From Sulfobacillus thermosulfidooxidans (lineage in GTDB: Bacteria; Bacillota; Sulfobacillia; Sulfobacillales; Sulfobacillaceae): a stretch of 64,000 nucleotides of DNA. Both the position numbers and the translations under genes were made by a program. Positions 2,971-59,392 of this stretch are shown here, piece by piece. Under the pieces are notes generated by a model. The model had not been told where the DNA came from. It made no database searches and saw nothing but the letters and a program-made list of their open reading frames with translations. Numbering within the stretch: position 1 is the stretch's first letter; every line of letters begins with the position of its first letter. The stretch spans positions 1 to 64,000 of the forward strand of contig NZ_LGRO01000002.1 of assembly GCF_001280565.1 (NCBI RefSeq). The letters are read 5' to 3'.

Positions 2971-3642
2971 TCAGTCAAGAACCTCCAGCATGAGTTTAAG
3001 GCACTCATCAGGAGTCAATTTGCCCGTATCCACGACAACCATATCCGGAAGCTGGCGCACAGGATTAACCTCGCGCATCGCATCGCTCGCATCCCGTTCC
3101 CGGAGTTCTCGTCCGACTTCCTCACGACTTATTACCTCACTTGCAGCGCACCGTTGACGCCAACGCCGCTCGATCCGAATCTCCGTGGGAGCATCACAAA
3201 AGAATTTGTGGCCAGCTTCGGGGAAAATTCCCGTACCTAGGCCATGCCCCTCCGCAACCAGACGCATTCCCGCCGTGGCAGTTCTAAAGCGAGCCGCTAA
3301 CCCTCGGCCAACCTCGGGGCGTCTCGTGATACGAGGCAACCATTTGCGTACTTCGTCTGAGTCTAGCTCATCAGGAGGTATCCCATAACCGTTAATATTC
3401 GGCGTGAGGACATTATTCTGGACATCAAAATGCAACTCGAGTCTGCTCAAGTATAATTCGAGCTGTTCAAGATCATTGGGATTAATTCCCTCGTGCAATA
3501 GAACCCATACGTTCAAACGATGCGCCATTCCCGTACTGAGCATAGGCACACCTAAGGAAGATGAGAGTAACCGGGCACAAGTTGATTTGCCTGATGCGGC
3601 GAAGCCGTCAATCGTGATTATCCCAGAACACATTCGAGTCAC
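2971..3642 (-). CDS. Cytidylate-kinase-like NMP kinase
   Basis: A P-loop NTPase of about 223 residues. IITIDGFAASGKST (P-loop at residues 13-21) is the signature of the CMP/dCMP kinase branch, which phosphorylates (d)CMP with ATP in pyrimidine salvage. A lid-like stretch (RIERRWRQRCAASEV) and a DMVVVDTGKLTPDE end resemble Cmk. I place the start at the GTG at 3642, five bases after GGGAG; a TTG at 3666 and an ATG at 3633 are alternatives with worse spacing. The middle is diverged, so this may be a paralogue rather than the housekeeping cmk. It stands alone between the mobile elements and the sedolisin gene. Confidence 0.65.
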   Translation of the reverse strand: MTRMCSGIITIDGFAASGKSTCARLLSSSLGVPMLSTGMAHRLNVWVLLHEGINPNDLEQLELYLSRLELHFDVQNNVLTPNINGYGIPPDELDSDEVRKWLPRITRRPEVGRGLAARFRTATAGMRLVAEGHGLGTGIFPEAGHKFFCDAPTEIRIERRWRQRCAASEVISREEVGRELRERDASDAMREVNPVRQLPDMVVVDTGKLTPDECLKLMLEVLD

Positions 3643-3728
3643 ATCATCTCCCTTTTTCGGCTGCAATAATCCAGATTCTGCTTTTTAATACGTCATGCGA
3701 ATGTTAAACCGGAAACTGATGAAAGTTC

Positions 3729-5621
3729 TCATCCTGAATTTTGCCACGTATCAATCACATCGGCTAATTTTTTCGCATCCGGCACCCCTAAACCGGTCAC
3801 CGCATTCCAACCGGGCCCAGCATTATAGTACCAATTGTTTCCCTGTGTGATTTGCCGCAGTCCTCCACTATTGGCATTGGCATACAAAGCATAGTTTAAA
3901 AGTCCTTGGGGACTTCCTGTATATTGATCAATTAATGCTACAATTCCCGCCCATTGGGGAGACGCAAAAGATGTGCCACCCCACCCATTCATCCATGGGG
4001 CAGTTGGTGATGAGTATACTGAATTGGAATCATAAATGGCGTAACCGGTAAAGGGATCGGCGTTAAATGACACATCAGGCACATCCCGGTTACCGTCATT
4101 CAGCGATTCGGTTTGCCACCATGAATATAATCCCGAGGTGGGCACGGGACTATTTGGCGTAAATAGACTTGAAGAACCTCCTCCAGAACCTATCGGATAA
4201 ATATCATTCTTCCATCTTGCCTCGCTTGTGACTCCAAAATTTTCATAATATGGGAGAAGATAACTCCATCCCCAACCTTGCTCGCCATTCATGGGAATAG
4301 TTCCGCCAGGAATCACGACGACACCACCGTTAATCGTCGGATTGGGATTGGTCGCACTGACTTGCGGCAAGGTTGTTCCCCCCACCGCTAAAATGTCAGG
4401 AGAGGAAGCTGGCAGATCAACACTTAAATTTTTGTCTGTAGGATAGCCATCGTAAGCCCCATAATCACCTGATGCAACCATCATCGTCATGCCTTCTGCA
4501 GCCCCTTGCATGAAGGCCTGATTCATCATATAGGCATAGGAAAACGGCGTAAAAAACTCACTTTCACCCCAACTACATGTCATCACCTGCGCCGTATCCT
4601 GGCTCACGACCGCTTGAAATAAATCAAGAAATCCAGGGGTCGTATTAGGCGCTTCATAGACAATAATATTAGCCCCTGGTGCCATTGCGCCGGAGCGTTC
4701 TACATCTAAACTCGTTTCAGAGCCCCCAATTCCCTTGCCAGAGGCATTAACATTTTGACCATCAACACCCACTTCGGACAAGGTTCCCGTGCGGTTAATC
4801 CCGTAATAGTTCCAGAACTGCTCAGCATCACTAGGAATGAACGGTGCCAACGTGGCCACGGCAATCGTTACACCTTTTCCTGTCACAGCATGGGGATTTT
4901 TATACAAGGGAGAGACATTGTAAACCTGAGCCATCTGTTGGGGTGAATATCCTTGTGGTGTGGTTGATCCAGATTGACTAGGGGTCTCGGATTGATTCAC
5001 CATATGGTCAGAAATCGCATTATACGTGGTCATTCCGGCAATTCCTGAGACCAATTGCGCCAAATTATATCCATCATAATTTGTGGGCAATACGGGGTTG
5101 GTATTATTGGCTAAATACGACCGGCCCTGATACAAATAGTTATTAATAGAAACTTGAAAAGCTCGTTCAACATTCCCAATAGTTCCCTCTACATTAATAC
5201 CCAGTGGATACGCGATTTGCTGGCCATTAACTGTTACAGGCTGAATGTCATATTGAGCCAGGTAATTTAATAAGGCGTGCACTGCTTGCGAAGACGGTGC
5301 ATAAGTCGCCGCAAAGGTTGATGCATTCATAAAATGATGGAAATAAGGTGAACTTGGCGTCACTGAATCTTGAATAAATTGGGCAACCGTTGAAGGATAA
5401 GACGAGCCTAGAGGGGCGTTTTGAAAATTAAAACCAATATAGAGCGTAACATGGGCTGAAGGAGAGGCTGGATTTCCCTCGCTGGAAGCATCCAAGAGCG
5501 CGTGAGCAACATTTCCGTGAATAATGCCCATAGACGCTGCTTGTACAGATCCGCCATAGCCCATAAGAGGCCATGCCGCCAACGCCGAAGCCAGTGTTAA
5601 AGCCCACACTTCTTTTTTCAC
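3729..5621 (-). CDS. Secreted sedolisin/kumamolisin (S53 serine-carboxyl peptidase)
   Basis: A 630-residue pre-pro-protease. Residues 1-28 form a signal peptide (MKKEV, hydrophobic stretch, SVQA). An S53 activation pro-domain follows to about 210 (PYFHHFMNASTFAATYAPS). The catalytic domain carries Glu302 and Asp306 (GSETSLDVE), Asp386 (VASGDYGA, oxyanion hole) and Ser551 (GWGGTSFASP). The C-terminal Ca site is GPGWNAVTGLGVPD. All residues of the Ser-Glu-Asp triad are present. S53 enzymes work at low pH, which fits protein scavenging or turnover outside an acidophile. The start is a GTG preceded by GGAAGGGAG. The gene is monocistronic with about 290 bp of non-coding DNA upstream. Confidence 0.93.
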   Translation of the reverse strand: MKKEVWALTLASALAAWPLMGYGGSVQAASMGIIHGNVAHALLDASSEGNPASPSAHVTLYIGFNFQNAPLGSSYPSTVAQFIQDSVTPSSPYFHHFMNASTFAATYAPSSQAVHALLNYLAQYDIQPVTVNGQQIAYPLGINVEGTIGNVERAFQVSINNYLYQGRSYLANNTNPVLPTNYDGYNLAQLVSGIAGMTTYNAISDHMVNQSETPSQSGSTTPQGYSPQQMAQVYNVSPLYKNPHAVTGKGVTIAVATLAPFIPSDAEQFWNYYGINRTGTLSEVGVDGQNVNASGKGIGGSETSLDVERSGAMAPGANIIVYEAPNTTPGFLDLFQAVVSQDTAQVMTCSWGESEFFTPFSYAYMMNQAFMQGAAEGMTMMVASGDYGAYDGYPTDKNLSVDLPASSPDILAVGGTTLPQVSATNPNPTINGGVVVIPGGTIPMNGEQGWGWSYLLPYYENFGVTSEARWKNDIYPIGSGGGSSSLFTPNSPVPTSGLYSWWQTESLNDGNRDVPDVSFNADPFTGYAIYDSNSVYSSPTAPWMNGWGGTSFASPQWAGIVALIDQYTGSPQGLLNYALYANANSGGLRQITQGNNWYYNAGPGWNAVTGLGVPDAKKLADVIDTWQNSG

Positions 5622-5915
5622 GAGGCACCGCTCCCTTCCTCTTCTGTTAAAATCTTACAACAGCGTAGCATACTTTATTCGAAATAATGACTCTTTTTTA
5701 GTCAAGGTTCTTGGTATCTTTGACAATCTGTAAAACGCCGACCAATGTTAAAAGTCTCATTCACCTATAACCTCGTTAACTTGCCGGATTGCGGAAAGAT
5801 AACGCCTCGGCCTGCACCGCATATCTAAAATTCCAAGTCACGATGCAGTGTTCATTATTGTCGAGGAGCAAATAAAGGCACAAAAAACCACATCTTTCAC
5901 CAGAATTTCCTAGCA

Positions 5916-53408: not shown

Positions 53409-53942
53409 TTAGCTTAAAGAATGAGGATGATCATAGGGAAGGCTTGTACGAGGTTCTCGATCCACATGAGGCAACGTCCAGTGATGTTCACTCATCCATA
53501 AGCGGTTAAATTGGTGCATGGTCATCGTTTGAATCATCACTTGACACACTGTGAGGTCCTCTCTCAAAGCCCTTTGAGCGGCAGTCACTGCTCCGTCGAC
53601 ACGGGAATTCATGCTGAACATTCCAGAAGGCTGGGCTAGAGCCATTTCGGTTAATTCTTGAAATAAGGCAAACATGTGATCCCGGAAGTCACTGAAAGGA
53701 ATATATTGCAAATCGGCTTGCCAGCCATCTAACAATGTCAAAATATGTTGTGCCGATGGCAACTCCCCAGCTCGCAATAATGTAATCAGAGCTTGTGCAC
53801 GAATTCGGGTCATACGCACGCTGAGTAACGCCTGATCTTGCCAGGTCAGCAACAATTTCCGCATGATATTCGCTTTATAGCGCCACATAATAGTGGCGCT
53901 AACCGCCCAGCACAACAACAAGATACATAAGATTGTGGACAT
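53409..53942 (-). CDS. Membrane-anchored helical protein, LemA-like (weak)
   Basis: 177 residues from the ATG at 53942, preceded by AAAGGCG. One N-terminal membrane helix (TILCILLLCWAVSATIMW) is followed by a long helical region: LLLTWQDQALLSVRMTRIRA and GAVTAAQRALREDLTVCQVM occupy places comparable to LemA helices, but identity is weak. LemA proteins often sit with HtpX-like proteases, and one lies 1.5 kb away. It starts 13 bases after the stop of a 41-residue peptide gene, so the two share a transcript. Confidence 0.5.
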   Translation of the reverse strand: MSTILCILLLCWAVSATIMWRYKANIMRKLLLTWQDQALLSVRMTRIRAQALITLLRAGELPSAQHILTLLDGWQADLQYIPFSDFRDHMFALFQELTEMALAQPSGMFSMNSRVDGAVTAAQRALREDLTVCQVMIQTMTMHQFNRLWMSEHHWTLPHVDREPRTSLPYDHPHSLS

Positions 53943-53955
53943 GAATCGCCTTTCT

Positions 53956-54081
53956 TTACAGTACCATGTGGTAGACGTCGGTAATCGGAGAAGGGGCAGG
54001 AATATATCCATCCGCGGGTTTAAAAGTTGCCATCCATAGCAATAACAATGAAATCATAGTGACAAGCTGCCAATGCTTCAT
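53956..54081 (-). CDS. 41-residue peptide with secretion-type N-terminus (candidate signal peptide precursor)
   Basis: ATG at 54081, nine bases after GAGGAGGAG, a very strong ribosome site; stop at 53956. The product starts MKHWQ, has a hydrophobic core (LVTMISLLLLWMATF), then KPADG and a polar tail YIPAPSPITDVYHMVL. Length and layout resemble precursors of RRNPP signalling peptides (PapR, NprX), in which the C-terminal residues are the signal. It is divergent from an HTH-TPR receptor-type gene across 200 bp with operator-like repeats. It could equally be a small membrane partner of the LemA-like gene it precedes. Confidence 0.6.
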   Translation of the reverse strand: MKHWQLVTMISLLLLWMATFKPADGYIPAPSPITDVYHMVL

Positions 54082-54137
54082 GATGCAACTCCTCCTCATC
54101 TACACTCTTTATACCTGAACGCGATATACTTGTGTTA

Positions 54138-54154
54138 TGTAACATCTAGTTACA
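54138..54154. promoter_or_regulatory. Inverted repeat between divergent genes
   Basis: TGTAAC and GTTACA face each other across five bases (ATCTA). It lies 57-73 bases before the peptide start and 131 bases before the HTH-TPR start, a suitable place for a dimeric regulator. Confidence 0.45.
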
Positions 54155-54176
54155 GCATTTGTATCTATCATTAGAC

Positions 54177-54209
54177 CAATTGATGAACAATTGAAGAACG
54201 ATTGAAAAA
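54177..54209. repeat. Three contiguous 11-bp repeats upstream of the HTH-TPR gene
   Basis: CAATTGATGAA (54177-54187), CAATTGAAGAA (54188-54198) and CGATTGAAAAA (54199-54209) follow without spacing. An 11-bp period puts each copy on the same helix face, as in iteron-type operators. Chance repetition in AT-rich DNA is possible. Confidence 0.45.
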
Positions 54210-54262
54210 TGAGCCATCTAATTCCTGTTCATCCGAGCCATTGCCAAGAAAAAGGGGGGAAA

Positions 54263-54278
54263 GACCGGACTACCGGTC
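54263..54278 (+). promoter_or_regulatory. Hairpin between ribosome site and start of the HTH-TPR gene
   Basis: GACCGG-ACTA-CCGGTC is a perfect 6-bp stem lying between GGGGGG (54254-54259) and the ATG at 54285. Linear spacing of 25 bases is too long for initiation; folding the hairpin leaves about nine. As DNA it is also a palindrome that could bind the regulator itself. Confidence 0.5.
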
Positions 54279-54284
54279 ACAATA

Positions 54285-55481
54285 ATGTCCCTAGGTCAGC
54301 GAATACGGCAAATGCGTCTACAACAAGGGTTATCACAGGCCGAATTGGCCGGTCATCAGTTATCTCGTGCCTATATCAGCCGGATTGAATCGGGATCCTC
54401 CATTCCGTCCCGAGAAACATTGGAATATCTAGCCAATCGACTCGATCGACCTGTCGATTTTTTTCTGAGCAATCATGATATCGAGCAGAAGGCCGAAGAA
54501 CTCATTCGTGAATCTCAGATGACCTTACAAAACAATCAGCCGGACAAAGCCCTGGAATTAGCCCAACAAGCTGTGACTACCAGCTTACTGACCCACTCTG
54601 AATCATTAATTGCCGATGCACGTTATCAGATCGGATGCTGTTATGCCTATCAGAATGATGTCGACAAAGCCTATGATGCCTTGCAAGACGCGCTATGGAC
54701 CTATTTGCGATTAAATGACCGGAAAAAGGAAACTCAAACCCTCTATTACCTTGGTAGTGTCTGTTTTAATGGCGAAGAATTTAAACAAGCCGCGCGTTTT
54801 TTCCGTACGGCGCTAGCGCGGGCCCGGGAACACAAGCGATTTCTACCTTTGTATTTACGAACGTTGACGGCTTTGGGCTCGACATTATTCCGGTTAGGAC
54901 AATTGGACGAAGCCTTTAGTCAATACCAGGAAGCCCAGCAATTAGCCGAGCAAATGGGAGAGACCGCACGCCAAATTGACGCCATGATGGGCATGAGCTG
55001 GATTCAATTCCGTCAAGGGTTGACGGAAGAAGCCATTGTGCTGGCCGAAAAAACGCTGGAACTCAGTGAACATTTTCGCCATTATCAGAGCGTGCCGCTC
55101 AAGCAAAATTTAGGGATCATGATTTTTGACAAGGCCCCAGAAAAAGCCCATCAGTTGTGGATAGAATGTCTCGAATATTACCGTGAGCATAATGACCGCA
55201 TCGGTCAAGTCACCATTTTAGAAGAATTGGGCCGCTATCATATCTTTGACCGTGATTTGGCTAAGGCCGATTATTTGTTTCATCAAGCATTAGCCTTAGC
55301 TCACGCTATTCCTAGTATCTACCTCGCCGGGCGGCTATACCGCGATCTTGGTGACGTCGCCCTCTTACAAAAGCTGCCTAAGCAAGCGGATGAATTATTC
55401 CGTTTAGCCTATGGCTGTTTTCGGACATTGCACGCGGAAGATGAATTACGCGAAACCGAAAAACGTTTTGTCAACGATTAA
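54285..55481 (+). CDS. XRE-HTH plus TPR regulator (RRNPP-like receptor)
   Basis: 398 residues. An N-terminal XRE helix-turn-helix (5-60: IRQMRLQQGLSQAELAGHQL, RAYISRIESGSSIPSRETLE) is joined to a run of about seven to eight TPR repeats (66-395), for example ALELAQQAVTTSLLTHSESL, DKAYDALQDALWTYLRLNDR and DEAFSQYQEAQQLAEQMGET. This is the architecture of PlcR, NprR and Rgg, whose TPR groove binds an imported peptide. Its upstream region has a palindrome, 11-bp repeats and a hairpin before the start. Its 3' end overlaps the HtpX-like gene by four bases. Confidence 0.88.
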   Translation: MSLGQRIRQMRLQQGLSQAELAGHQLSRAYISRIESGSSIPSRETLEYLANRLDRPVDFFLSNHDIEQKAEELIRESQMTLQNNQPDKALELAQQAVTTSLLTHSESLIADARYQIGCCYAYQNDVDKAYDALQDALWTYLRLNDRKKETQTLYYLGSVCFNGEEFKQAARFFRTALARAREHKRFLPLYLRTLTALGSTLFRLGQLDEAFSQYQEAQQLAEQMGETARQIDAMMGMSWIQFRQGLTEEAIVLAEKTLELSEHFRHYQSVPLKQNLGIMIFDKAPEKAHQLWIECLEYYREHNDRIGQVTILEELGRYHIFDRDLAKADYLFHQALALAHAIPSIYLAGRLYRDLGDVALLQKLPKQADELFRLAYGCFRTLHAEDELRETEKRFVND

Positions 55482-56392
55482 TTCCAGTAGCGATGTAAGC
55501 GGGCAATACGTTCGTCTGTCGAGGGATGAGAAGCCAATGCCGACCACTTGCTCACACCCGTCCAAATAAAGCCCAGCAACTGAGCGGCTTCTACCGTGCG
55601 CAAATCCTTAGGCAAAACAGGTCGTTTCTTATGGCCGGAGCGCACTAACTGTGTCGTCACATAGTGGCGGTTGATCGCCTCACAATTTTCTAAGGCTTTA
55701 ATCAATCCTACCGGGCTGCCTAATAACACACTCGCCGTCTCATCCGCGGCCAACTCCCGGTAGCGCGAAAATAACCGTGTGAGTAATGTGCTAACAGCCC
55801 ATGTTAGCGTAATGCCCGCCATCACGATTCCTACTGGGTTATTGTTGGACTGGCGAAAGGACAATAAGTTACCCAAAATCCACCACCGCTGCATGAGAGC
55901 ATTTAAGACCAAGTTTAAGCTACCGGCGACGAGAATCATTGTCATATCATGATGCGCAATGTGTGCCACTTCATGCGCTATCACCGCATCAAATTCATCA
56001 GGCTGGAGATCTCGTAATAATGTATCGGTCACCACAATCGCATACCCTTTCCCCGTCCACGAGCGTACAGTAAAGGCATTGGCAACGGGAGAGGATATTT
56101 GAAATAATACAGGAACGGGAATATCCGCTAAAAACGCGATCCGTTCTAGCCGTTCTTGCCACTTGGGTCCTAACGGTTCCGCAGAAGCCATAAACAGACG
56201 CGGAGAGAGAACCCACCCGCCGACAAGCATCACAAGAGCTAAGATGAATCCGACGCCGATTTCGAACCACCAGGGCCAATGCAACTGGTGATGGATAAAC
56301 CAAACAAAAAACAGATCGAGGGCCATAATCCCTATGAGTACCATTATCATTCGTGAAATGAGTACAAAATTAGGACGTTGCCATGATTTCAT
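55478..56392 (-). CDS. M48 family membrane metalloprotease (HtpX-like)
   Basis: 304 residues. Two N-terminal membrane helices (about 10-34 and 44-64), the zinc motif HEVAHIAHHD (His140, Glu141, His144), two more hydrophobic segments, and the third ligand in SRYRELAADETA (Glu213). HtpX proteins degrade misfolded membrane proteins at the inner face. It is convergent with the HTH-TPR gene. M48 proteases also process peptide pheromone precursors in some Gram-positive systems, which is worth noting given the adjoining candidate cassette. Confidence 0.88.
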   Translation of the reverse strand: MKSWQRPNFVLISRMIMVLIGIMALDLFFVWFIHHQLHWPWWFEIGVGFILALVMLVGGWVLSPRLFMASAEPLGPKWQERLERIAFLADIPVPVLFQISSPVANAFTVRSWTGKGYAIVVTDTLLRDLQPDEFDAVIAHEVAHIAHHDMTMILVAGSLNLVLNALMQRWWILGNLLSFRQSNNNPVGIVMAGITLTWAVSTLLTRLFSRYRELAADETASVLLGSPVGLIKALENCEAINRHYVTTQLVRSGHKKRPVLPKDLRTVEAAQLLGFIWTGVSKWSALASHPSTDERIARLHRYWN

Positions 56393-56834: not shown

Positions 56835-57716
56835 ATGCATATCCGATTGTTAAACGGAAAACCTCATCCCCCTCAAGAGGTTGGTTACAAAGCGGCAGCA
56901 CTCAATGAGTTAATGGCTCATCACATTTTGATTCCCCGAGCTTTTGTCGTGACGACAACTCTTTACCACCAATTTCTTCAAGAAAATGGTCTCGATTTTC
57001 CTCAGCCCATTACGCCTCAAGAGATTACTCAGGGAAGATTTTCCCCGTCACTCCAAGCGGTTATTTCTCAGGCATTACAAGATTTTTCCCCAGATGCACG
57101 CTTGGCGGTGCGCTCTTCCTCCTTGTTCGAGGATACTAAAGAAGCCTCATTTGCCGGCCAATATGCCACAGTGCTCGGTGTCTCTCAAGCGGGAGTATTT
57201 GATGCCATTAAGCACTGCTGGAGTTCGGTGCCCCAAGAACATGTGAAGGCTTATGCCATGAGGCAAGGCATTTCCCTAGAGACTGGATCGATGGCTGTCA
57301 TTGTTCAGGCGTTAGTTCATGCCGACGTTTCAGGTGTGAGTTTTAGTGTTCATCCTGTCACGGGTGATAACCGGGTGGTTATCAATGCGTCTTATGGCTT
57401 GGGTGAGGTGATTGTGGACGGAACTGTCACGCCGGATGTTTTTGAAATTGATAAGGACACGGGAAGCGTGAGCCAACATATGGGTTTCAAAGAATGTTGG
57501 ATGCAGCTTAACCCTGAAGGAGGCACCGAAATCCGGGACACTCCCTTAGACCGTCAATCTTGCTTTTGCTTAACTTCACACGAGATACAAGCCATTTATC
57601 AATTGACCTGCACATTAGAACAGATGGCTCGATGTCCTATTGATGTCGAGTGGGCCATAGCGGATCGCGTCTTATATTGCTTGCAAATGCGTCCCATAAG
57701 TACTCCTCAATTTTGA
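56835..57716 (+). CDS. PEP-synthase/rifampin-phosphotransferase-like ATP-binding subunit
   Basis: 293 residues of the PPDK N-terminal ATP-grasp fold alone: EVGYKAAALNELMAHHILIP start, RLAVRSSSLFEDTKEASFAG, and SGVSFSVHPVTGDNRVVINA with SYGLGEVIVDGTVTPD; DVEWAIADRVLYCLQMRPIS closes it. It matches the first ~300 residues of rifampin phosphotransferase and PEP synthase but has no swivelling His domain; that is on the next gene. It would transfer the beta phosphate of ATP to the partner's His. GAGGTG precedes the ATG. Confidence 0.85.
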   Translation: MHIRLLNGKPHPPQEVGYKAAALNELMAHHILIPRAFVVTTTLYHQFLQENGLDFPQPITPQEITQGRFSPSLQAVISQALQDFSPDARLAVRSSSLFEDTKEASFAGQYATVLGVSQAGVFDAIKHCWSSVPQEHVKAYAMRQGISLETGSMAVIVQALVHADVSGVSFSVHPVTGDNRVVINASYGLGEVIVDGTVTPDVFEIDKDTGSVSQHMGFKECWMQLNPEGGTEIRDTPLDRQSCFCLTSHEIQAIYQLTCTLEQMARCPIDVEWAIADRVLYCLQMRPISTPQF

Positions 57717-57766
57717 CACGTCATGCCGCCAATTTGCAGATTTGCACATTAATTAGGAGGGAATAT

Positions 57767-59392
57767 ATGTCAACACAAAGCGAAATTACCTTATCATCCC
57801 AAGACTTAGCAGAGCATTTTTGGGTTCAAGATGGCCTGCACTTTAGCCGACCTCTTACCCCTTTATTTGCATCCTATATGATTCCTGCGATCAGCGACGG
57901 AACCCAACGCGCCATGGCTGCTCTAAAAGGTCCGGTTCGTCAATTCATCGGCAAGGTGCACGATGGCTATTATTATCAGGCCGTGATTCCCTTGCCAGGC
58001 GATCCCAAAGACACACTGTACCAGCATCAAAATGCTTTAAAACCTTTTATGAGCCAACAATCCGCTCAGATGAAAGAGATCGTGGATTCAGTTCTCATGC
58101 CGCTGCATCAGGAAATTACAGATTGGGCAAACCAGCCCCTTGATGACCGAACGGCCATTCAAGCGTTAATCCGTTTACAAGAGATTTACCTCACATTTTG
58201 GGAGTGGCATTTTCGTATTGTTGTACCCCGCATGGCGGCAGGATTTCGTTTCGAAGAAACTTACCACCAGGCATTCCCCTCACACCATGCTACCGACGCA
58301 TACGATTTGTTGTTAGGCGTTATGAATAAATCCCTGGAAACCGATCGCGCTCTGTGGCTTCTCGCTCAAGAAGCCAAAACCCGTGCAAGTGTTAGGCGAG
58401 CTCTTGAGGCCAATGACTTTCAAACCGCATTACAAAACGACCCTGAGGCCCAATCGTTCCAGCAATCGCTGAGTGATTTTCTCGAGGTCTATGGATGGCG
58501 CTCGGTCAACTCCCATGAGTTCGTTGATGAGACTTGGATTGAACGTCCCGATTATTGCATAACCATTATCAAGGGATATATCGAACAAGATTTTGATTTT
58601 GACCATCACTGGACCCGCGTGGTTCAACAACGCGCACAGCATCTTGACGAGATTCTCACACAAATCTCTGACCAATCTATGCGCTCTCAATTTATCGCAG
58701 CGTATCAAGACGCTCTAGATGCTTGGCCTATCGATGAAGACCACCATTTTTATATTGATGCCATGTTGCCCGCGAGAGCCCGCTACCTTTGTCTTAACGT
58801 GGCCAAACATCTTCAAAACAAAGGAATACTGTCGCGCCCTGATGATATCTTTTTCCTTTTTCTCGATGAAGTCCTTTCTCTGCTGACGGACCCCAATGCC
58901 ACGGATCCCTCTACCATCATCGCAGAACGGCGCACTCTTTATCAGCAGCAACTAAAAAACACCCCCATACCTCAGTTAGGAACGGCTCCAGATGCCCCAA
59001 GAGATCCTGACTTATTATTAGTACGAGTGTTTGGTGATGGATCGCCCGCCATAGGCATGGAAGGGCCGATGCGCGAAGTGCGCGGTTTTGCGGCGTCACG
59101 GGGCCGCTACCGGGGACCAGTTCGGATTATTCATGGCCCTCACGAGTTCTTCAAAGTGAAACCCGGAGACGTGTTGGTATGTCGTAGTACCGCCCCATCC
59201 TGGACAGGACTTTTTGGCATTGCCGGCGCTATTGTCACGGAAACAGGAGGCATCTTATCGCATGCGGCCACTGTCGCCCGTGAATACCAAATTCCTTGTA
59301 TTGTGGGAACACGCAATGCTACCCACGTGTTTCACGAGGGCGATATTGTGCTAGTGGACGGCACGCTGGGAACAGCCATAATCGATGGTTGA
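57767..59392 (+). CDS. Substrate-binding plus phospho-histidine subunit of split PEP-synthase/Rph-like enzyme
   Basis: 541 residues from the ATG at 57767, five bases after GGAGGG. Residues 1-420 are helical and resemble the substrate domain of rifampin phosphotransferase; the C-terminal mobile domain has VLVCRSTAPSWTGLFGIAGA and ETGGILSHAATVAREYQIPC with the phosphorylated His499. Together with the upstream gene the length (293+541) is close to a single Rph (~870). Phenylphosphate synthase of anaerobic phenol users is also split this way, so a phenolic substrate is an alternative. It overlaps the MFS gene by eight bases. Confidence 0.8.
   Translation: MSTQSEITLSSQDLAEHFWVQDGLHFSRPLTPLFASYMIPAISDGTQRAMAALKGPVRQFIGKVHDGYYYQAVIPLPGDPKDTLYQHQNALKPFMSQQSAQMKEIVDSVLMPLHQEITDWANQPLDDRTAIQALIRLQEIYLTFWEWHFRIVVPRMAAGFRFEETYHQAFPSHHATDAYDLLLGVMNKSLETDRALWLLAQEAKTRASVRRALEANDFQTALQNDPEAQSFQQSLSDFLEVYGWRSVNSHEFVDETWIERPDYCITIIKGYIEQDFDFDHHWTRVVQQRAQHLDEILTQISDQSMRSQFIAAYQDALDAWPIDEDHHFYIDAMLPARARYLCLNVAKHLQNKGILSRPDDIFFLFLDEVLSLLTDPNATDPSTIIAERRTLYQQQLKNTPIPQLGTAPDAPRDPDLLLVRVFGDGSPAIGMEGPMREVRGFAASRGRYRGPVRIIHGPHEFFKVKPGDVLVCRSTAPSWTGLFGIAGAIVTETGGILSHAATVAREYQIPCIVGTRNATHVFHEGDIVLVDGTLGTAIIDG

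Follow-up and report, generated by a model that had tools for sequence, protein, structure and literature searches.

The window analysed here, a 64,000-nucleotide stretch of contig C2 (NZ_LGRO01000002.1) in the nearly complete 3.83 Mb genome of Sulfobacillus thermosulfidooxidans (genome label G000), contains a cassette of three genes that is probably a self-contained peptide-signalling (quorum-sensing) unit of the RRNPP type; the probability assigned to this reading is about 0.72. The cassette is composed of a small open reading frame (ORF) encoding a candidate signal propeptide, the gene ORF2 on the same strand, and a divergent gene for a regulator with an XRE-type helix-turn-helix (HTH) domain and tetratricopeptide repeats (TPRs) (Table 1). 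An initial annotation of the window had proposed an RRNPP-type regulator with a divergent secreted peptide. This core idea is supported by the present analysis, and pairs of paralogous genes found in relatives strengthen it considerably. ORF2 was absent from that annotation.

Table 1. Features of the candidate signalling cassette and its flank (positions in the window; aa, amino acids)
Feature	Position	Strand	Basis and remarks
ORF2, 177 aa, N-terminal membrane segment followed by a helical domain	53409..53942	-	13 bp behind the propeptide stop codon
Candidate signal propeptide, 41 aa, MKHWQLVTMISLLLLWMATFKPADGYIPAPSPITDVYHMVL	53956..54081	-	Sequence reading; conserved in G003; signal-peptide-like profile
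Shine-Dalgarno sequence GAGGAGGA of the propeptide, 8 nt 5' of the ATG	54090..54097	-	Read from sequence; identical in G003
Probable -10 box TATAAA of the propeptide promoter	54108..54113	-	Sequence inspection; conserved in G003
Inverted repeat TGTAAC-ATCTA-GTTACA (TGTAACATCTAGTTACA), candidate operator	54138..54154	.	Exact match; identical in G003
Three imperfect 11-bp repeats, probably outside the mechanism	54177..54209	.	Sequence reading; not conserved
XRE-HTH and TPR regulator, 398 aa, candidate peptide receptor	54285..55481	+	Pfam, AlphaFold2, fold match
M48 (HtpX-like) metalloprotease, flanking core gene, outside the cassette	55478..56392	-	Pfam Peptidase_M48; convergent, overlaps the regulator stop codon

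The 41-residue ORF, its strong ribosome-binding site and its divergent orientation relative to the HTH-TPR gene were confirmed from the sequence, and its N-terminus resembles a signal peptide. The Shine-Dalgarno sequence has a score of 6 in the scan for small-ORF neighbours. An alternative in-frame ATG at 54099 would extend the propeptide to 47 residues, but lacks a strong Shine-Dalgarno sequence. By inspection, the N-terminus has a basic start, hydrophobic residues 9-19, and a putative ADG-Y cleavage site, and it passed a crude hydropathy filter. The C-terminus of the peptide reads SPITDVYHMVL.

The propeptide and regulator genes are separated by 203 bp. Inspection of this DNA indicates that the TATAAA box of the propeptide has a poor -35 element and that the inverted repeat is positioned just upstream, where an activator would be expected to bind. 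A consensus promoter scan detected no promoter for the small ORF, the TATAAA box included. The repeat, which the initial annotation had described as TGTAAC-N5-GTTACA, is the sole exact copy in the genome in a genome-wide pattern scan, as it is in genome G003 of the same genus. It does not appear to be a box of a genome-wide regulon, as there is no second exact copy and copies with up to two mismatches are fewer than those of the reversed control pattern. The three 11-bp repeats, put forward together with it, are present in the window, but they are deleted in G003; they are therefore not a conserved element and are rejected as an operator.

The three genes and the inverted repeat are conserved in G003. 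The proteins encoded in the window and in G003 are 94% (regulator), 93% (small ORF), and 86% (ORF2) identical; the conservation of the small ORF beside the regulator, on which the initial annotation had made its proposal depend, is thus found. The small ORF differs by five synonymous and three non-synonymous changes. The corresponding rates are 0.03 for non-synonymous (dN) and 0.21 for synonymous (dS) substitutions, with a dN/dS of about 0.15 calculated from few sites, and dN/dS is 0.05 for the regulator and 0.14 for ORF2. The stretch from the inverted repeat to the start codon is nearly unchanged, and conservation of the segment 53935-54167, comprising the small ORF and its leader DNA, is above what the synonymous sites of the neighbouring genes predict. 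The DNA of the small ORF may itself be under constraint, because its dS is well below the 0.65 of the regulator and 0.50 of ORF2.

Elsewhere in the genus the unit is lost. In genomes G001, G002, G006, and G007, the methyltransferase gene that borders the cassette in the window and the M48 gene, whose product is 62-73% identical to that in the window, adjoin each other only 0.1-0.3 kb apart. Genome G005 contains a frameshifted remnant of ORF2 at the same place (alignment score of 87 versus a shuffled maximum of 37), and no recognisable regulator or peptide was found at this site. A peptide match on contig C90 of G005, covering residues 21-41 at 52%, falls within a glycosidase-like ORF and is attributed to chance. 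The flanks in the four genomes and the remnant in G005 indicate that the cassette comes and goes, and that ORF2 moves along with it and the M48 gene does not. ORF2 is likely to be co-transcribed with the propeptide gene as the output gene of the cassette. It has no Pfam or NCBIfam hit, and its helical model, of moderate quality and based on a two-sequence input, has no match in the PDB, with none under E 0.001 in Foldseek. The idea, raised in this analysis, that ORF2 is a LemA-like partner of HtpX is a guess.

The regulator matches the Pfam families HTH_3 (4e-12) and TPR_12 (1.3e-21), both over the cut-offs. Its AlphaFold2 model (pLDDT, the predicted local distance difference test score, of 93) comprises about nine helix pairs, and the top bacterial fold matches include Rap and NprR complexes with peptides (Z about 26-27). 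The predicted fold is compatible with the RRNPP type, but is not diagnostic of it. In RRNPP proteins, one conserved asparagine of helix A, Asn227 in RapF, holds the peptide backbone (PMC3601957). Asn275, located in a TPR helix of the window regulator, is nearly invariant in peptide-linked regulators, as is Arg192; the register of Asn275 relative to RapF Asn227 differs among the matched chains. A contig search with the regulator sequence alone gave no matches, whereas one with an alignment retrieved named relatives, including Sulfobacillus harzensis of the same family as the window genome. RRNPP_detector (PMC10075063) searches for receptors of 250-500 aa with C-terminal TPRs and usually an N-terminal HTH domain, next to a propeptide of 10-100 aa with a Sec signal and a gap of -60 to 400 bp. 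The window has a 398-aa receptor with TPRs and an HTH domain and a 41-aa propeptide within this distance, with the signal peptide identified by inspection only.

Genes for HTH-TPR proteins were collected from the genus, family, and class, resulting in 91 non-identical genes, 88 of them with sufficient upstream sequence. Small neighbours were required to have an ATG, at least 5 bases of Shine-Dalgarno sequence, a crude signal-peptide profile, and a distance of at most 350 bp. A divergent small ORF of the secreted type is present upstream of 15 of the 88 genes, and none is located upstream on the same strand. Downstream of the 91 genes there are four on the same strand and one on the other strand. 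Among 187 control genes of the same loci, no independent divergent small ORF was found; the seven hits are the peptides already counted, reached from the gene on their other side. The difference between 15/88 and 0/187 has a Fisher p of 1.6e-8, which serves only as a guide since the related genes are not independent. The HTH-TPR regulators of the cassette type are thus statistically coupled to divergent secreted-type small ORFs. The peptide is not universal for such regulators, because no peptide accompanies a large clade of 440-aa paralogues (23 rows of the tree) whose members occur in the whole family. In the regulator tree, the peptide-linked regulators are not all united and the peptide label changes several times. 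The DNA between the divergent genes contains short palindromes linked to clades: TTCAC-N3-GTGAA occurs in loci L034 and L183, L182 and L178 have versions of it that deviate at one or two positions, and GTCACATTTGTGA is common to L138 and L159.

The related propeptides have unlike signal parts, but their C-termini agree in an [ILV]T[DN]PG-like motif (Table 2). Nine of 13 peptides fit the motif, compared with a mean of 0.1 after shuffling of the tails, although the motif was picked post hoc and some of the peptides are close relatives. Three peptides of the Sulfobacillales type end in TDPG[AS]P. Repetition, a trait of known pheromone precursors (PMC11343458), occurs within some propeptides: that upstream of the regulator at L133/L165 (genome G140) contains LADWMGPGVLD twice, and that of L199 contains TTNPPVSD twice in tandem.

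Table 2. C-terminal ends of related peptides and the genes located behind them
Locus	Peptide end	Genes behind the peptide
L034 (own genome)	VLPNGLTDPGAP	Radical SAM
L178	GTGLTDPGAP	Radical SAM
L182	QTSVTDPGSPS	TauD
L183	PPSGITNPGVPA (..GITNPGVPA)	
L120 + L122	SPSDVTNPGVS	Class II tRNA-synthetase-like and a cytochrome P450-like ORF (P450 by inspection); also L161, L163
L010	TPTDVTNPGVS	
L084	TPSDVTSPGVV	ThiF (L084/L160)
L138	NPQGITDGGPA	B12-type radical SAM (L138/L164)
L162 + L198		FGE-sulfatase

A second system in the same genome, L034 (G000:C1:299000-306000, 3059-5860), consists of an HTH-TPR regulator and a divergent 54-aa secreted-type peptide ending in GLTDPGAP. A radical SAM/SPASM maturase gene overlaps the end of the peptide gene, and an exporter of the major facilitator superfamily is also present. 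Behind the radical SAM gene there is a separate, leader-type small ORF containing cysteines (..SGNNCPC, within 5705-5860). L034 is a probable peptide-controlled cluster for a ribosomally synthesised and post-translationally modified peptide (RiPP).

The position of related small ORFs at the head of operons with radical SAM, B12-radical SAM, ThiF, TauD, FGE-sulfatase, and class II tRNA-synthetase-like genes suggests another function. The small ORF could be a substrate, encoding the precursor from which a secreted or modified peptide (a RiPP or bacteriocin) is made under the control of the HTH-TPR regulator. However, two supported regulator clades retain their peptide type though the enzymes behind it change, so that the same C-terminus occurs at loci with unrelated enzymes and tracks the regulator clade. 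In addition, the cysteine-containing ORF of L034 is a better substrate, and the window contains no modifying enzyme. The persistence of the peptide across the enzyme change and the separate ORF of L034 favour a role of the peptide as a signal for the regulator rather than a substrate. Sec-type N-termini are also unusual in cytosolic RiPP substrates. A substrate function is considered unlikely.

It is quite unlikely that the product of the small ORF is a short membrane protein acting together with ORF2, for example in a membrane complex, and that the TPRs of the regulator sense something else. The hydrophobic N-terminus and the operon shared with a membrane-anchored protein are in line with such a function, and the signal peptide was judged by inspection instead of by a prediction program. 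Nevertheless, many related regulators have a divergent small ORF yet non-membrane downstream genes, the ADG-Y site obeys the -3/-1 rule on inspection, and the conserved motif of the paralogues is positioned at the extreme C-terminus. The suggestion of the initial annotation that the M48 protease processes the peptide is very improbable and the protease is rejected as a cassette component: its gene does adjoin the regulator gene convergently with overlapping stop codons, but it is kept beside the same methyltransferase gene in the four genomes of the genus that lack the regulator, the peptide, and ORF2, and the active site of HtpX-type M48 proteases is predicted at the cytosolic/membrane face.

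Several observations weigh against the assignment of the cassette to RRNPP-type signalling. It has a single other carrier, the species represented by G003. The RNPP_C Pfam match of the regulator is below the cut-off. The fold Z-scores are 30 for LGN, 27.6 for MalT, 27 for Rap, and 26.6 for NprR, and neither sequence nor model-based fold comparison sets RRNPP proteins apart from other TPR proteins. Furthermore, the regulator forms its own long branch in the tree, and the window peptide fits the C-terminal motif by ITD alone, with a shuffle p of 0.037 that is weak singly.

For the cassette as an RRNPP-type signalling unit, we infer the export, processing, uptake, and binding of the peptide and the direction of regulation as follows. 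The 41-aa propeptide would be exported via the Sec pathway, and signal peptidase would probably cut after ADG (25/26), freeing YIPAPSPITDVYHMVL, which would be trimmed to a short C-terminal peptide. An oligopeptide permease would re-import this peptide. The genome encodes 15 homologues of oligopeptide-binding proteins (SBP_bac_5), which form a common family and provide weak evidence for uptake. Inside the cell, the peptide would bind to the TPR superhelix of the regulator, and the loaded regulator would work at the inverted repeat beside the weak propeptide promoter. The more likely direction is activation of the propeptide-ORF2 operon, which would result in a positive feedback loop with the membrane-anchored ORF2 as its output.

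As judged from its sequence, the cassette belongs to neither the NprR nor the Rgg subfamily as defined. It is similar to NprR/NprX and QssR-type systems (nine-TPR, clan B of PMC12700828) in the N-terminal HTH domain, about nine TPR-like helix pairs, the receptor length of about 400 aa, and a secreted propeptide of about 40 aa encoded next to the receptor gene. Most of the TPR domain in the AlphaFold2 model of the window regulator can be aligned with NprR and Rap. However, the propeptide gene is positioned immediately downstream in Bacillales systems including NprR (PMC9765709), whereas it is divergent here; no significant sequence match singles NprR out, and the window taxon lies outside the Bacilli. 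Streptococcal Rgg/SHP (short hydrophobic peptide) systems, including drivers of radical SAM RiPP clusters (PMC13361665), also pair a regulator of the HTH-TPR-like kind with a small pheromone gene next to it and sometimes control RiPP operons. L034 resembles them in having a regulator and a divergent peptide together with a radical SAM maturase and a separate cysteine-containing small ORF. In contrast, SHPs are about 20 aa long, are exported by PptAB, and have no Sec signal, whereas the propeptides described here are longer and of the Sec type, and Rgg has five degenerate TPR-like repeats instead of the canonical TPRs found here. The mature peptides of AimR/AimP and of AloR/Paenibacillaceae subfamily 08 commonly contain a DPG motif (PMC12700828), comparable to the TDPG[AS]P ends, but the TPRs of these receptors are degenerate and the window peptide lacks DPG.

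Small ORFs beside related regulators were also observed at other loci. A third candidate in the same genome, L036 (G000:C1:562000-569000, 3220-4492), has a 31-aa secreted-type ORF (..GPLSGAIPPPMH) that overlaps the stop codon of an HTH regulator gene in the classic downstream arrangement. In the viral contig IMGVR_UViG_2609460177_000004 (L219, 2760-3549), a related HTH-TPR gene is divergent from a 42-aa secreted-type ORF with a strong ribosome site (..FIKQMSDQIGA); it is possible that this is a phage communication system. The divergent small ORF of an Alicyclobacillus plasmid gene (L227) contains SVTSPGVG. In plasmid pB2.1 of Priestia aryabhattai (L225, 1498-3102), an HTH regulator gene with a divergent asnB is adjacent to a gene for a hypothetical protein containing several near-identical copies of NDPNPIVSIDKVAL, which looks like a tandem pheromone precursor; tandem-repeated copies are mentioned for such precursors in PMC11343458. 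Elsewhere in the window, at 56835-59392, two adjoining ORFs resemble a phosphoenolpyruvate-synthase-type enzyme split into N-terminal and C-terminal parts.

Reports of RRNPPA proteins come almost exclusively from Bacilli, plus some Clostridia (PMC9765709, PMC12700828). Surveys of acidophile genomes for quorum sensing covered acyl-homoserine lactone, autoinducer AI-2/AI-3, and diffusible signal factor signals (PMC9040811, PMC10972369), and in the literature searched, RRNPP or peptide pheromones were not found mentioned together with Sulfobacillus. There seems to be no earlier description of RRNPP-type cell-to-cell signalling in the class that contains Sulfobacillus. The evidence tips slightly towards a lineage-wide set of such systems, spanning Sulfobacillales and related classes. 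HTH-TPR receptors would then combine with divergent Sec-type propeptides ending in T[DN]PG-like tails into a mobile control module that stands in front of varied enzyme clusters (with radical SAM, ThiF, TauD or FGE-sulfatase genes, among others), and the window cassette would be a variant that controls a membrane protein. If this is true, biomining bacteria would possess a peptide language of their own, concrete candidates for which could be synthesised and tested, and peptide signalling may turn on cryptic RiPP-type clusters.

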